From assembly GCF_000217815.1 (NCBI RefSeq), contig NC_015707.1:1166014-1230013 (forward strand): a DNA stretch of 64,000 nucleotides. The letters run 5' to 3'. This document shows, in pieces, positions 9,831 to 18,900 of the stretch (position 1 is the stretch's first letter; each line of letters starts with the position of its first letter). This DNA is from Pseudothermotoga thermarum DSM 5069 (GTDB taxonomy: Bacteria; Thermotogota; Thermotogae; Thermotogales; DSM-5069). The translations under genes were made by a program, and so were the position numbers. Under the pieces are notes generated by a model. The model did not search any database. It was not told the DNA's origin and was given only the letters and a program-made list of their open reading frames with translations.

Positions 9831-10097
9831 AGTAATTTTGTTCGTAAGTCGAACTTGTCGTCGACCTACGATAATGCAAAAACTACTGGAGGTCGACGAC
9901 AAACAGTTTTTATACACTACAACTGACAAAACTCAAGTTAGATATTTTTAACTCTGAATCGCAAGACCTCCTTCACCCCCAAGGTCGACGACAAATTAGT
10001 TATGCAAACATTCCAAAAGTTGACTTGACAAAAGCAAAAGTGATATAATTTGACTGGAATCCAAAAATGCTGGTATAATCACATATAGAGAAAACGG
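9831..10097 (+). promoter_or_regulatory. Leader of CRISPR array 2
   Basis: The leader runs up to the first repeat at 10098 and is closely matched by 16470-16732 before array 3. It contains a palindromic hairpin (9855-9902), a third copy of the right arm AGGTCGACGACAA (9982-9994), and two head-to-tail promoters: TTGACT 10020-10025 / TATAAT 10044-10049 and TTGACT 10050-10055 / TATAAT 10074-10079. Both have 18-base spacers, and the second is extended by TGG. The second would start transcripts just before the first repeat. New spacers should enter at this end. Confidence 0.85.
9855..9902. repeat. Leader palindrome (13-bp inverted repeat, 22-base loop)
   Basis: TTGTCGTCGACCT (9855-9867) and AGGTCGACGACAA (9890-9902) are perfect complements. 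The loop ACGATAATGCAAAAACTACTGG is almost unchanged at 16503-16524 and 20624-20645. Conservation of the loop argues for more than a simple terminator stem. A T-run (CAGTTTTTAT) follows 4-5 bases later, so it could also end transcription of the gene upstream. Confidence 0.85.
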
Positions 10098-12061
10098 GTT
10101 TGAACCCTACCTATAAGGAATGGAAACAACTCTAACTTCGAATCTGTCGGGATATATTGCTGAGTTTGAACCCTACCTATAAGGAATGGAAACAGGATTG
10201 ATTCTTCCACCACCTTCAAATGTTAATGCAGTTTGAACCCTACCTATAAGGAATGGAAACACAAACTTTCCATCTTTGAACAACAGTGAAGCACTTAACG
10301 TTTGAACCCTACCTATAAGGAATGGAAACCTACATTCATTGTAATCATTCAACCACCTCCAATCGTTTGAACCCTACCTATAAGGAATGGAAACGTACGT
10401 ATAGTCTCCGATGATAATTTCCGCCATTGGTTTGAACCCTACCTATAAGGAATGGAAACTTGTTTTTTTGCAAAATTGATTCGATACACGAAATGAGTTT
10501 GAACCCTACCTATAAGGAATGGAAACATGTTTTCCACCAATGCGTCCAATCGATCCCGTTCAGTTTGAACCCTACCTATAAGGAATGGAAACACCATATG
10601 ATGTGTTCGTTCGTACTATGGACCAGGTGTTTGAACCCTACCTATAAGGAATGGAAACTACGTATACACAAACGTCTGATAAATTTGAATCACAGTTTGA
10701 ACCCTACCTATAAGGAATGGAAACTTGTTCCTGATGTTTAGCGCCTTAAGCACGGAATCCTCAACGTTTGAACCCTACCTATAAGGAATGGAAATTTTTC
10801 GAGTATACCAGTAAGTTCGGAACTGTGCAAAGTTTGAACCCTACCTATAAGGAATGGAAACTTTGATTCGGTAACTTTTATTTTTTGCTTTATAAAGGTT
10901 TGAACCCTACCTATAAGGAATGGAAACGCGTTAGACAAATTTGTTAATTCAACAGGCTTCTCTGGGTTTGAACCCTACCTATAAGGAATGGAAACTGATA
11001 TATACGCGTGAAATCCGTAATCACTCGGAAAATGTTTGAACCCTACCTATAAGGAATGGAAACTGTATCTGAGTGTAAGAGATAGTGCCTTGAAAGATTG
11101 TTTGAACCCTACCTATAAGGAATGGAAACAGTACTAGTACATGCCGGCAATCTATCCAACCGCTGTGTTTGAACCCTACCTATAAGGAATGGAAACTTTT
11201 CTTCGCCGTTCCTACGCTTAGTCTATATTCTTGTTTGAACCCTACCTATAAGGAATGGAAACGGATCTGTTACTGCATCTGGTCTTTCGTTAAGCATCGT
11301 TTGAACCCTACCTATAAGGAATGGAAACAGCTTGTCTGCACTTGGCGCAGATTGTATGCTAAGGTTTGAACCCTACCTATAAGGAATGGAAACTATTGTG
11401 ATAGACTGTGACCACATTTTTATCTCTGACGTTTGAACCCTACCTATAAGGAATGGAAACGTATTCAGAACACGGTGTCACGTACAATTTGAAATCCGTT
11501 TGAACCCTACCTATAAGGAATGGAAACTTTGGTTTTAGCGGGCGCTGCGAAGGCGGGCGAGCGTTTGAACCCTACCTATAAGGAATGGAAACTACGTATA
11601 CACAAACGTCTGATAAATTTGAATCACAGTTTGAACCCTACCTATAAGGAATGGAAACTTGTTCCTGATGTTTAGCGCCTTAAGCACGGAATCCTCAACG
11701 TTTGAACCCTACCTATAAGGAATGGAAATTTTTCGAGTATACCAGTAAGTTCGGAACTGTGCAAAGTTTGAACCCTACCTATAAGGAATGGAAACCACGT
11801 CCGTTCATAATCACCCCTAATAAGACCTACCGTGTTTGAACCCTACCTATAAGGAATGGAAACTCGTCGTGCGAGCCGTGCGAGCTTGCTTCTGTCGTGT
11901 TTGAACCCTACCTATAAGGAATGGAAACGGTCTTCCGTTACCAATTGATTGCCTTACGCTTTTGTTTGGACCCTACCTATGAAGAATGGAAACGGTATTA
12001 CAGGCACAAAAGTGTAATGTCCGCAACAAACGTGTGTGCGTCACCTAAAAGGAATGAAAAC
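10098..12061 (+). CRISPR. CRISPR array 2 (about 30 repeats)
   Basis: Repeats of 30 bases begin GTTTGAACCCTACC and end TATAAGGAATGGAAAC, spaced by 35-41 bases. The first starts at 10098 and the last intact one at 11899. The copy at 11964-11993 is altered (GTTTGGACCC..., GAAGAATGG) and one near 12032-12061 is badly degenerate, giving the distal end. Two copies (10766, 11700) end in GAAAT instead of GAAAC. A block with three spacers (10629-10861) is repeated exactly at 11563-11795. The leader is at 9831-10097. Expected use is crRNA for the Csm complex. Confidence 0.97.
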
Positions 12062-13772: not shown

Positions 13773-14029
13773 ATGGGGGGAGAAATGCTTGAGATTGCGG
13801 CTGAATTAAAGAAGCATTATTTGGGTTTTGTTTTATCGAGATTAAAGGCTGCAGGTTTGAGTGAGGAGAATAGTTGAAGATATGAGATTCTTCAAAGACT
13901 CTGGGAGCATTACAGACACAAGCTGAGGTGTTTTAACAGGAACCGGTTATGGTACAACAGAAGTGATGAGGAGCTGGTGAAGTGGTTATTTCAATTTCTT
14001 TTATTGGTGCAGTTTTCCTTCTTAAGTTG
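13773..14029 (+). pseudogene. Possible decayed ORF with internal stop
   Basis: From ATG 13773 a protein-like frame (MGGEMLEIAAELKKHYLG ... AAGLSEENS) meets a TGA at 13875. The same frame continues as RYEILQRLWEHYRHKLRCF and then DEELVKWLFQF until about 14029, running into the start of the next gene. Both parts are charged, helical and use codons like the neighbours. I read it as an interrupted small gene. It matches no family I know, and chance reading frames remain possible. Confidence 0.35.
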
Positions 14030-15199
14030 ACAGGTCCTAGACCATATATGAGTTTAGATAGCGAATCTTCATATGTTTATACCAAATTGCCTAAAAGTAT
14101 TTTGAAAATGATTTTCTTAATGTTCTCTTTAATCAGTTATTATCACGTGCTAGTTAACAGAACTCTTTTAACCTATAAATTCATCCATTACAAAATCGAA
14201 GAAAGCGATGTGCCAAGAAAAAGGAAAAAATACATCTATGACAGGTACGTTGAAGTCAAATGTTCCTCTTTCGACGTACAGGAAGATTCAAACGAAAAAA
14301 GCCCAATGAAGTTTTGGTTGGCAAAAAAATGCAGAATAAGGTACATAAACAATGGCAGGGAATGTGGAAAACGCATTGCAGGTAAATCAAATTACAACGT
14401 CATACCTTTCGAAGTTAAAACTGAGGATGGTAACCTCACGGGAGCAATAGGTTGTGAGATCGCAAGAGATTGCTTAGTTATTAGATTTGATAAGCGATTT
14501 TTCAACTACACAATGGTGATTAACCTTTGCTCGGCAGTCTGCAAGGCAATTGAGAAACTTTTCAACTACGGTGAAAACGAGCTCTTTTTCCTTGTGGATG
14601 AGAAAATGAACCTCAACGATTCAGACCACATTTTCGCTTTATTCTACGATAGAACAGGAAACGAAGAGATCGAGTTTGAGACCATCGCAGAAAATTTTAT
14701 GGACATTCTTAAAGTTGCGTACGATTCTCTTAACACGTGCAACTGCGTTAAAGGTTGCACGAATTGTATGGCGATCCGCAGGGTTGACTATGAGTATATA
14801 TTCGATAAACAAAAAGCTATCAAAGCTTTGAAGCTATCCATATTTGAAAGGGATGAAACAACGAAATACTGTGATGAAGAATCTGCCGTTGTTGAAGAGG
14901 TTACTGTAATCTCCGAGCCAAATACGGGCAAGTTCCGTGTGCAATCTTCTTTGATTAATCGGGAATTCGAATATTACGAGAGCACTTTGGATAAGCAGAA
15001 GAAAGTCAACTTGGAATACAAAAATCTTGCAAAAATTCTCAAGCTATATTGTGGAAGAGCTGATGAAATTGTTATAAAATCAAAACAGCAATGGGTTGTT
15101 GAAAAGATCAACTTTCTGACGTCCTCTGACGACACTTACATTGATGAATTTTGTTTTTACCGACTTGCCTATAAAAACGTTGTTGGAATAAAGATATAA
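13982..15199 (+). CDS. DUF1998/MZB-like zinc-binding protein, helicase domains absent
   Basis: A 405-aa protein. Residues about 165-265 resemble the DUF1998 (MrfA/DrmB-type) domain that follows superfamily 2 helicase cores. A helix IAENFMDILKVAYDSL leads into a four-cysteine cluster C253-N-C255 and C259-T-N-C262, preceded by the FALFYDRTGNEE segment equivalent to the family's LFDxxPGG turn. No Walker A, DEAD box or other helicase motif is present in it or next to it. The N-terminal 60 residues are hydrophobic and may be mis-started or derived from other sequence. It may be a helicase remnant, or a stand-alone DNA-binding subunit like DISARM DrmB. It lies 21 bases before the TPR/cold-shock-like gene. 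Confidence 0.6.
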   Translation: MVISISFIGAVFLLKLTGPRPYMSLDSESSYVYTKLPKSILKMIFLMFSLISYYHVLVNRTLLTYKFIHYKIEESDVPRKRKKYIYDRYVEVKCSSFDVQEDSNEKSPMKFWLAKKCRIRYINNGRECGKRIAGKSNYNVIPFEVKTEDGNLTGAIGCEIARDCLVIRFDKRFFNYTMVINLCSAVCKAIEKLFNYGENELFFLVDEKMNLNDSDHIFALFYDRTGNEEIEFETIAENFMDILKVAYDSLNTCNCVKGCTNCMAIRRVDYEYIFDKQKAIKALKLSIFERDETTKYCDEESAVVEEVTVISEPNTGKFRVQSSLINREFEYYESTLDKQKKVNLEYKNLAKILKLYCGRADEIVIKSKQQWVVEKINFLTSSDDTYIDEFCFYRLAYKNVVGIKI

Positions 15200-15220
15200 T
15201 GATTCTTGGAGGTGGGGCGT

Positions 15221-16465
15221 TTGAATCAACAACCAAAAAGAAGCAATCAAATGCTCAGAGAGATGTATAATTCGTTGAAGACCCATCTTAATGCTAAGGA
15301 TTTTCAAAAAGCTTATGAGATTGCGACTGCGATCTTGAATGAGAATGACCCATTTTGGACGAAGCAAGTCAACAGATACCTTCCTTGGATTTTGTTCAAC
15401 CTCAAGCTGAAATCCCAACGAATATCCTTAGAAGAATTGCACCAAACCGTTGAAACGATAGTAACGCTGAGCGAGAGAAAGAACGGTTTTGTTTTGCGCT
15501 CAGTTTCTATTCTTGCCTCGGAAACCCTTAAAAAGGCTGATCGTAAAAAGGGATTGCAAATCTTGCAATCGGCGAATGAACTGTTGGACAAGATAAATGT
15601 TGATGAACTCAGCGACAAACCGTTGGAAAGTTCAAAGTATAAAGATAAAGCAGGTAAAAACAAGGTGCTTCCATCTGAAAGAGAAAAATGGTATCAATTG
15701 AAAACCAAGATTCTGCTTGTCCTTAAAAAGTACGACGAATGTATTCAACAGTGTAGAAATGCTTTAAAAGTATCAAATTTAATTGATCCGGTATGGTTTT
15801 ATTATAGAATCGCCTGTGCAAGTTCTTACATTGGAAAATACGAAGAAGGTCTCGAAGCCTTGGAAAAAGTGTTACTTTACAAAGATGACTGGTATGTTCA
15901 AAAACTTTTCTTTGAAATATACGCTAAGATGAAAGACTTTGACAATGCGCTGAAATATGGATGCAGAACCGCCCTTAACAGTGCAAGTGACTCGCAAAAG
16001 TTGACGTTCTACCTGAATTTCGCGGATTTTCTCAAGGCACATAACTACAAACGTGAAGCGGACTTGCACTATTATCTCTATCTAAAAACCTTGGAAAAGA
16101 TGAAGGATGGTCAGAAAAACGACACAAATGTCAAGAGAGTCTATGGCAGTTTGACCGACAAGAACGTCGTAAAAATGAGAGAACAAGATGTCAGATCAGA
16201 ACTGGCGAAGTTTTGGAAAGATAACAAATTCAGAAACGAAAAGCAACTTGAAGGTACGGTCGCAAAAGTTATCAACAACGGTGCTGGATTCATAAAATCT
16301 TCTGACTCTCAAAGCTACTATTTCAAGTTAGAGGATGTGGAAAATGCCCCAAAAAGCGCTCACGAGTTGCGAAACAAAAAAGTCAAATTCTATCCCACCA
16401 AAAGCTATGACAAAAAGAAGGGCATGGAAAGCTGGGCTGCTGTGGGAATAGTGGTTGTTGAGTAG
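15221..16465 (+). CDS. TPR-like protein with C-terminal cold-shock-type OB domain
   Basis: A 414-aa protein. Residues about 10-330 are repeated helix pairs of TPR type (for example KDFQKAYEIATAIL, KYDECIQQCRNALKVS, KYEEGLEALEKVLLYKDD and DFDNALKYGCRTAL). The last 75 residues read as a cold-shock-like beta barrel: LEGTVAKVINNGAGFIKSSD, then YYFKLEDV, and VKFYPTKSYDKKKGMESWAAVGIVVVE, matching the GxVxxxxxxxGFI...G..A.nV plan. A nucleic-acid-binding adaptor is likely. The TTG at 15221 is chosen because GGAGGTGGGG lies just upstream. Its stop is 4 bases before the leader module of array 3, so it sits tightly inside the CRISPR island. Confidence 0.68.
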   Translation: MNQQPKRSNQMLREMYNSLKTHLNAKDFQKAYEIATAILNENDPFWTKQVNRYLPWILFNLKLKSQRISLEELHQTVETIVTLSERKNGFVLRSVSILASETLKKADRKKGLQILQSANELLDKINVDELSDKPLESSKYKDKAGKNKVLPSEREKWYQLKTKILLVLKKYDECIQQCRNALKVSNLIDPVWFYYRIACASSYIGKYEEGLEALEKVLLYKDDWYVQKLFFEIYAKMKDFDNALKYGCRTALNSASDSQKLTFYLNFADFLKAHNYKREADLHYYLYLKTLEKMKDGQKNDTNVKRVYGSLTDKNVVKMREQDVRSELAKFWKDNKFRNEKQLEGTVAKVINNGAGFIKSSDSQSYYFKLEDVENAPKSAHELRNKKVKFYPTKSYDKKKGMESWAAVGIVVVE

Positions 16466-16469
16466 GCAA

Positions 16470-16732
16470 AATTTATTCGCTATGCGAACTTGTCGTCGAC
16501 CTATGATAATGCAAAAACTACTGGAGGTCGACGACAAACAGTTTTTATTCTCTACGACTGACAAAACTCAAGTTAGATATTTTTAACTCTCACTCACAAG
16601 TCCACCTTCACCCCCCAGGTCGACGACAAATTAGCTATACGAATTTCCAAAAAGTTGACTTGGCAAAAGCAAAAGTGATATAATTTGACCAGAATCCAAA
16701 AATGCTGGTATAATCACATATAGAAAAAACGG
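16470..16732 (+). promoter_or_regulatory. Leader of CRISPR array 3
   Basis: The leader is almost the same as that of array 2. It has AATTTATTCGCTATGC (16470-16485), the palindrome arms TTGTCGTCGACCT (16490-16502) and AGGTCGACGACAA (16525-16537), and the extra right arm at 16617-16629. Tandem promoters are TTGACT 16655-16660 / TATAAT 16679-16684 and TTGACC 16685-16690 / TATAAT 16709-16714. The first repeat begins at 16733. It starts directly after the stop codon of the TPR/cold-shock-like gene. Confidence 0.88.
16490..16537. repeat. Leader palindrome of array 3
   Basis: The 13-bp inverted repeat and its 22-base loop match the copy at 9855-9902 with only a C/T change at the loop start (TATGATAATGC for TACGATAATGC). 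The conserved loop and arms are followed by CAGTTTTTAT. Confidence 0.87.
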
Positions 16733-18900
16733 GTTTGGACACTACCTATGAGGAATGGAAACAGTTCTTCTTCCAATGCCAATGCCGGAAGACTGTCCGT
16801 TTGGACACTACCTATGAGGAATGGAAACCAGCATACAGCATTGCACCAACAACATCGGAATCTGGTTTGGACACTACCTATGAGGAATGGAAACGCATAC
16901 CAATTCACAAAACTTTGGTACTTTTCCAATTGTTTGGACACTACCTATGAGGAATGGAAACGGGAATGTGGTACAATTATTTATGAGCGCATAATTAGTT
17001 TGGACACTACCTATGAGGAATGGAAACTGCCGTATTCGTTCATACCAACTATAATCCAGTCAAGGTTTGGACACTACCTATGAGGAATGGAAACAATCCT
17101 GCCGGGACATATTCGCTTTTAACACCTACGTTTGGACACTACCTATGAGGAATGGAAACTTGTTTTAGCGCCCTGATTTTGGGCGCAGATTTAGTGTTTG
17201 GACACTACCTATGAGGAATGGAAACTTTTTTAGCATAAACATCACTTTCTAATAAAGAAAGTTTGGACACTACCTATGAGGAATGGAAACCTTTTCTTGA
17301 TTGCATATAGTGCTACGTTTGCAAGAGTTTGAACCCTACCTATGAGGAATGGAAACCCAGAAAAGCAGGAAGGCGTTTACTATATTGTATCGCGTTTGAA
17401 CCCTACCTATGAGGAATGGAAACTCGAAATCTGCAGAAAGGTTGTTTCTCGAGTAAGTGGTTTGAACCCTACCTATGAGGAATGGAAACTTTAAACATCC
17501 AATCGAGAAAAAACTTATCTTCCCAGTCGGGTTTGAACCCTACCTATGAGGAATGGAAACTTGAGTTCCTCGTCGTTTACAGAACCACTCACATCTAGTT
17601 TGAACCCTACCTATGAGGAATGGAAACTTGAGCGACCACGACGGAATGTGGAAATCTGTATAGGTTTGAACCCTACCTATGAGGAATGGAAACCTCTATA
17701 AACAATTCAAAAACGAAATCCATCAATACCGTTTGAACCCTACCTATGAGGAATGGAAACTATTAGAAAGTTGGTCGTGGTGTGATATAAGATATAGTTT
17801 GAACCCTACCTATGAGGAATGGAAACTTTTCAACCAACCAGACCGCAACCCGCTCGTTAATGCGTTTGAACCCTACCTATAAGGAATGGAAACGTTTCAT
17901 ACCTTTGACCTTTCCCGGAACACCATCGAGTTTGAACCCTACCTATAAGGAATGGAAACTTCGTTTCCAGTACGAACCTGAACATCCTGAACCCCTGGTT
18001 TGAACCCTACCTATAAGGAATGGAAACCTTCTGAGATTTTGCGCCCGCCATGGGTATGGGGGGGTTTGAACCCTACCTATAAGGAATGGAAACGGGAATT
18101 TCTCCCTGGTATCTGTGACAAGTAAAAAGTTTGAACCCTACCTATGAGGAATGGAAACTAAGCCTCCTGCGGCTATTTCATCACCAATATTTTCACGTTT
18201 GAACCCTACCTATGAGGAATGGAAACATACGCACTAACATTTTCCGCAATCCAATTTGTAATGTTTGAACCCTACCTATGAGGAATGGAAACAGTGATGA
18301 TCGTATTGGTCCATACCACGGACAATTCAAGTTTGAACCCTACCTATGAGGAATGGAAACAGTAACGGATTGACAGATCCCAGCAGGGATCCACCCTGGT
18401 TTGAACCCTACCTATGAGGAATGGAAACCGTGTGTCTGTATGCAGTAGATAGTACTTGGAAAGTTGTTTGAACCCTACCTATGAGGAATGGAAACGTTTC
18501 TACCAAATGGACCACAACCTGCTCGTTGAAGCAGGTTTGAACCCTACCTATGAGGAATGGAAACTACCGAAATAAGGTTCTCGGCGGCTTTGGCCGCGAT
18601 TACCCGTTTGAACCCTACCTATGAGGAATGGAAACCCCAATTTAAACGTTGAAACCGTGCTGAATAAAGGGTTTGAACCCTACCCATGAGGAGTGGAAAC
18701 AATATATTCAGGTCGCATGGCAGGTAGAGAGGTCGGTTGTTTGAGCATAACGATGAGAAACTGAAACGCTAACATCGCATCTGCGTGTACCCTCTTTTTA
18801 GCTGTCTGAATACTACCTATGAGTAATGGGAAACTGTTAATTCATCTATGAGCATGTTAATCATTCATTCGTTCGAACAGCACCTAAGGAGTTTAGAGAC
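16733..18900 (+). CRISPR. CRISPR array 3 (about 33 repeats, three repeat variants in blocks)
   Basis: The first nine repeats (16733-17290) are the GTTTGGACAC...TATGAGG form of array 1. The next eight (17327-17826) are GTTTGAACCC...TATGAGG. Four (17864-18093) are GTTTGAACCC...TATAAGG, the form of array 2. From 18129 the TATGAGG form returns to the end. Repeats at 18671, 18739, 18804 and 18871 are increasingly degenerate, so decay rises toward the distal end. Spacers are 35-41 bases. The leader lies at 16470-16732. Two spacer pairs appear to target homologous genes (see findings). Confidence 0.97.

Follow-up and report, generated by a model that had tools for sequence, protein, structure and literature searches.

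Two genes between CRISPR arrays encode a DUF1998 protein and a TPR-cold-shock protein

We analyzed a 64,000-nucleotide stretch of Pseudothermotoga thermarum DSM 5069 (NC_015707.1, positions 1,166,014 to 1,230,013; here, the window). As noted in the original prediction, two adjacent genes, here referred to as P1 and P2, lie between two CRISPR arrays. The arrays span about 10098-12000 and 16733-18700 and belong to the same repeat family. P1 is an open frame of 405 aa (13982-15199) and P2 one of 419 aa (15206-16465), and both are without stops. The locus has the following features, all on the forward strand:

13918-14037 (+): fragment from the right end of an IS240/IS6-like insertion sequence (IS), comprising the transposase 3′ end (in another frame) and then the terminus ...TTAAGTTGACAGGTCC (from genomic copies)
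13982-15199 (+): P1, open frame with the canopy part of a YprA helicase of TALON-like type, from its C-terminus (TALON profile, 57-60 bits); codons 1-19 are IS derived
14225-15109 (+): stretch of P1 (residues 82-376) collinear with the C-terminus of TALON YprA helicases (profile alignment)
14528-14770 (+): MZB/DUF1998 zinc-binding domain (PF09369, 34.4 bits) with CxCxxxCxxC at 14738-14767 (cysteines from the sequence)
14834-15196 (+): C-terminal domain of P1, possibly an inactive RNase H-like domain as in TALON helicases (collinear with TALON; 0.2 bits alone)
15208-15214 (+): strong Shine-Dalgarno sequence GGAGGTG of P2 (duplex of -14.1 kcal/mol for TTG 15221)
15221-16465 (+): P2, TPR-cold-shock (TPR-CSD) protein (PDLC01170, E 5.2e-47)
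16469-16732 (+): leader of the second CRISPR array, given as context only (89% identity to the first-array leader)

In a Pfam search, MZB (the current Pfam name for DUF1998) was identified in P1 residues 183-263 with 34.4 bits versus a cut-off of 24.2, and no helicase domain was found. The four cysteines at residues 253, 255, 259, and 262 are all kept. P2 matches nearly the whole PADLOC model PDLC01170 (TPR repeats and a cold shock-like domain with an OB-fold; E 5.2e-47). These matches bear out the proposal that a four-cysteine DUF1998-like protein without a helicase core is followed by a TPR/cold-shock protein. The frames originally listed also hold, whereas the starts call for correction: the most likely start of P2 is TTG 15221, just 3′ of the GGAGGTG motif, where the ribosome-binding duplex is the best in the frame, and the first 19 codons of P1 derive from the IS. 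A Pfam match of the P1 C-terminus to PCNA_N was weak and under the cut-off and was rejected. The codon usage of the pair is low, yet inside the range of the window genes, and is compatible with decay or low expression.

P1 corresponds to the C-terminal canopy of a YprA helicase

TALON consists of a YprA helicase, a NERD nuclease, a TBP, and a TPR-CSD protein; it is largely confined to Chloroflexota, and its helicases terminate in an inactive RNase H fold (PMC12458937, a 2025 preprint). A TPR-CSD scan recovered a Chloroflexi contig (L035) with genes in a row for YprA (DEAD, Helicase_C, and MZB), NERD-UvrD, an RNase H protein, and TPR-CSD. Five further loci from 400 Chloroflexota genomes encode YprA, NERD, a small protein at the TBP position, and TPR-CSD. 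The small third-gene protein was unrecognized by Pfam and is TBP according to PMC12458937. Thus, five of the six loci have the order YprA-NERD-TBP-TPR-CSD, and an RNase H protein occupies the TBP slot in the sixth. The pairing of a DUF1998 helicase with a TPR-CSD protein is, therefore, the already published TALON pairing. The defense ancestry originally suggested for P1-P2 is in agreement with this combination, whereas the idea of an undescribed or CRISPR-linked module is not, as the pairing is published and was recovered here in six Chloroflexota genomes.

A profile built from six TALON helicases matched P1 with 57-60 bits (60.1 at best) and aligned its residues 81-377 to positions 1147-1441 of the 1472-position profile. 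P1 is, thus, collinear with the TALON C-terminus over about 295 residues, while shuffled P1 reached a maximum of 8.1 bits. A profile of the other Thermotogota DUF1998 helicases gave 17.8 bits and matched the MZB region alone; the TALON type of canopy, i.e., connector plus DUF1998, is accordingly present in P1 (60 versus 17.8 bits). When parts of P1 were compared separately with the TALON profile, residues 60-182 (14159-14527) gave 17.6 bits, a score that none of 200 shuffles reached, and residues 183-263 gave 29 bits, likewise above all 200 shuffles. Residues 1-64 and 285-405 alone did not score above shuffles (n=200), and the TALON affinity of P1, therefore, comes from the connector and DUF1998 regions. 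In full-length YprA helicases, the C-terminal canopy was the only part with which P1 aligned. At the level of sequence comparison, these data identify P1 as the end portion of a YprA helicase that forms the canopy, with connector, DUF1998, and C-terminal domain, and show that it is most similar to TALON helicases.

The full-length structure model of P1 is of low confidence (mean pLDDT of 43; only two alignable sequences). In Foldseek, this model matched RNase H1 (4e19) with a probability of 0.98 and the DUF1998 helicase MrfA (6znp) with a probability of 0.89, and nothing was found at an E value of 0.001 or better. A model of the isolated C-terminal domain (mean pLDDT of 52) has the order strand-strand-strand-helix-strand-helix-helix-strand and gave no RNase H match in a structure search. 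The domain may be equivalent to the inactive RNase H-like fold at the end of TALON helicases.

An IS end cuts the 5′ side of P1

The IS fragment at 13918-14037 (120 bases) has 29 other matches in the genome that are 79-95% identical, one of which is a weak 20-base match. Six inspected copies share with the window the terminus ...TTAAGTTGACAGGTCC, and all diverge directly past GGTCC; the transposase ORF of one copy matches DDE_Tnp_IS240. In the window, the P1 reading frame begins directly 3′ of the IS terminus. Because this terminus is shared by the copies and then followed by the P1 frame, codons 1-19 are IS derived. Specifically, the listed start codon, GTG 13982, and codons 1-19 lie inside the IS fragment, and so does the only good ribosome-binding site of P1, which is strong at GTG 13982; the in-frame starts downstream have weak sites. 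The left part of the IS element is also missing at the locus, which would fit a deletion that extended outward from the IS. We note that the genome contains many short fragments from the right end of a single IS240/IS6-like element, a large share of them matching over just 40-200 bases, in a MITE-like manner.

TALON partner genes and further copies of the pair were not found

The TALON feature of a YprA RecA core joined to DUF1998 is absent from the genome and the window, in which only the canopy is present. With the L035 helicase as the query, P1 was the only match in the 2.04-Mb genome, and no other YprA core was found; the same query also reaches YprA-family helicases outside TALON (E 4.6e-23 and 6.8e-42). 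A six-frame scan of the window gave no trace of a helicase core. A six-row NERD alignment, run without a positive control, detected no NERD nuclease in the genome or in the six reading frames of the window. Similarly, no TBP was found in the genome or the six-frame window scan, which is a weaker negative because the A6 profile had no positive control and PF22721 was silent in controls. Since the helicase core and the nuclease were both searched for and not found, the locus cannot be filed as a TALON member. It resembles TALON in that P1 has a YprA-family C-terminal canopy with DUF1998 and shares an operon with a TPR-CSD protein; it differs in having no helicase core, NERD nuclease, or TBP and in its host, which belongs to Thermotogota and not Chloroflexota.

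The four-cysteine DUF1998 region of P1 also resembles the canopy of MrfA and of DISARM DrmB, which is likewise separately encoded; separate canopies are known in DISARM and sporadically elsewhere (PMC12458937). Unlike in DISARM, the genome has no DrmA helicase or other YprA core, the YprA query returning only P1, and no nuclease or methylase partner is adjacent.

Neither P1 nor P2 had a match in any of the order's remaining 44 genomes, i.e., the pair occurs in 1 of 45. P1 alone had no match in the genome contigs searched, and tblastn with P1 and P2 gave none in plasmids. Among 103 Thermotogota genomes, nine have the MZB domain, and all MZB proteins except P1 are helicase frames of at least 815 aa, the shortest of which lies on a cut contig. 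No short intact DUF1998 protein was detected in the 400 Chloroflexota genomes, and every TALON helicase found was full-length.

P2 is related to TALON and TOTE TPR-CSD proteins

P2 matched the TPR-CSD proteins of the TALON locus L035 and of L032-L034 with 100-121 bits. Its best matches were TPR-CSD proteins from Methanovirga and from loci in which the partner is TBP-like or of the SF1 type (L032 and L034). Scans of viral contigs with our first TPR-CSD alignments returned nothing. L032-L036 were found using an alignment that included two made-up consensus rows, which served only to widen the search patterns, and each match was verified in a tblastn search using the actual protein from the window. 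The TPR-CSD protein of another TALON locus (L074) also matches PDLC01170. In a tree of 14 TPR-CSD sequences, including six TALON proteins, five of these six form a fully supported clade; that of L035 and P2 fall outside this main TALON clade, and P2 sits on a long branch among TOTE-type proteins, its exact place being unsure. Judging from these comparisons, the operon may not be a typical TALON but represent a TALON-like branch that has diverged.

TOTE conflict systems are named for TPR, OB, TBP, and Effector (Aravind et al. 2022, as cited in PMC12458937, the one source on TOTE that our literature search returned). High-scoring TPR-CSD proteins are present in three other Thermotogota genomes, either next to an SF1 helicase-TBP (a TOTE arrangement; Pfam TBP-TOTE) or next to or fused with RNase H. 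The best matches of P2 and the variability of effectors, e.g., the helicase-TBP with Pfam TBP-TOTE in L009, would fit P1-P2 being a TOTE-type system with the DUF1998 protein as the effector and never part of a full TALON. However, the locus shares with TOTE the TPR-CSD protein, i.e., the TPR-OB component, but the set is incomplete because no TBP was found in the genome and no active effector is recognizable. Moreover, the closest relatives of P1 are TALON helicases, and the IS junction cuts the 5′ side of its gene. We, therefore, regard a TOTE-type origin as very unlikely.

Several TPR-CSD loci have features of their own. In Thermotogota, L009:6740-10585 (G056:C17) encodes a single chain of 1281 aa with RNA polymerase beta and beta′ domains, which may be the RNA polymerase of a mobile element; it adjoins a TOTE operon, which comprises SF1 helicase-TBP and TPR-CSD, as well as a sigma-54-activator ATPase and genes that look by eye like cas genes. 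In related Thermotogota, TPR-CSD adjoins an RNase HI-like protein in L010 (G051) and is fused to it in L011 (G050), in both cases amid housekeeping genes, and may form a domesticated pair with it. On an IMG/VR contig (L032:10001-12633), the gene after TPR-CSD encodes a protein that weakly matches the RnlA toxin and that has, by eye, a methyltransferase-like C-terminus; a McrBC-like pair and other defense-type genes lie nearby.

P1-P2 is probably the remnant of a TALON-like operon

Because the pair is unique among 45 genomes, P1 matches the helicase C-terminus only, and an IS end cuts its 5′ side, we consider P1-P2 to be probably the IS-truncated, decayed remnant of a TALON-like defense operon and no new defense system. 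The original prediction had named decay of a larger helicase system as the main alternative, to be recognized by a pair confined to this genome and a first protein aligning with helicase C-termini alone, and this is what we observed.

In an intact TALON, the helicase would translocate on foreign DNA while its canopy holds the strand, the nuclease would cut this DNA, and TPR-CSD and TBP would help to recognize or assemble on nucleic acid. At this locus, the IS may have inserted in or beside the helicase gene, and a deletion outward from the IS may then have taken the motor part; alternatively, the operon could have arrived already truncated. NERD and TBP may have been lost or may never have been part of this divergent branch. 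Lacking both motor and nuclease, the remnant would not be expected to restrict phage.

As a counterpoint to decay, both frames (405 and 419 codons) are stop-free, the four cysteines are kept, and the ribosome-binding site of P2 is strong, which suggests that decay is recent or that something is still selected. P2 could still be translated and act as a nucleic-acid-binding protein, and there is a small chance that part of the remnant still works. The same open frames and cysteines, the strong ribosome-binding sites at GTG 13982 and TTG 15221, and the precedent of the separate canopies described above would also suit a working helicase-less module with an IS-given start, a DrmB-like canopy, a TPR-CSD sensor, and perhaps a host helicase. 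This is unlikely given that the genome has no partner YprA core, no other genome searched has the pair, and TALON helicases were invariably full-length, with no short intact DUF1998 counterpart in the Chloroflexota genomes. Quite improbable, too, is a functional helicase-less derivative of TALON, in which a lone DUF1998 canopy with an IS-supplied start and TPR-CSD would use a host motor in trans or act as a nucleic-acid sensor.

As a remnant, the locus extends TALON/TOTE-like parts to Thermotogota and exemplifies how IS elements can break large helicase defense operons into stubs that resemble new small modules. The variation seen here is loss, and the main value of recognizing it is that the stub is not misfiled as a new system.

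The pair and the neighboring type III-A CRISPR system

The leader of the second array begins 4 bases past the P2 stop codon. A 300-base repeat (9834-10133 and 16469-16768) contains both array leaders, which are 89% identical, and the window also includes a type III-A csm operon, Csx1, and Cas6. The position between two arrays of one family and the csm operon in the window are what an accessory module of the type III-A system would lead one to expect. However, related TALON operons carry a complete gene set that is not CRISPR related, no other genome searched in the order has the pair, and nothing ties P1-P2 to the nearby system, making such a role exceedingly improbable. One of the CRISPR arrays has an internal duplication, in which 233 bases of repeats and spacers at 10629-10861 recur at 11563-11795 with 100% identity.
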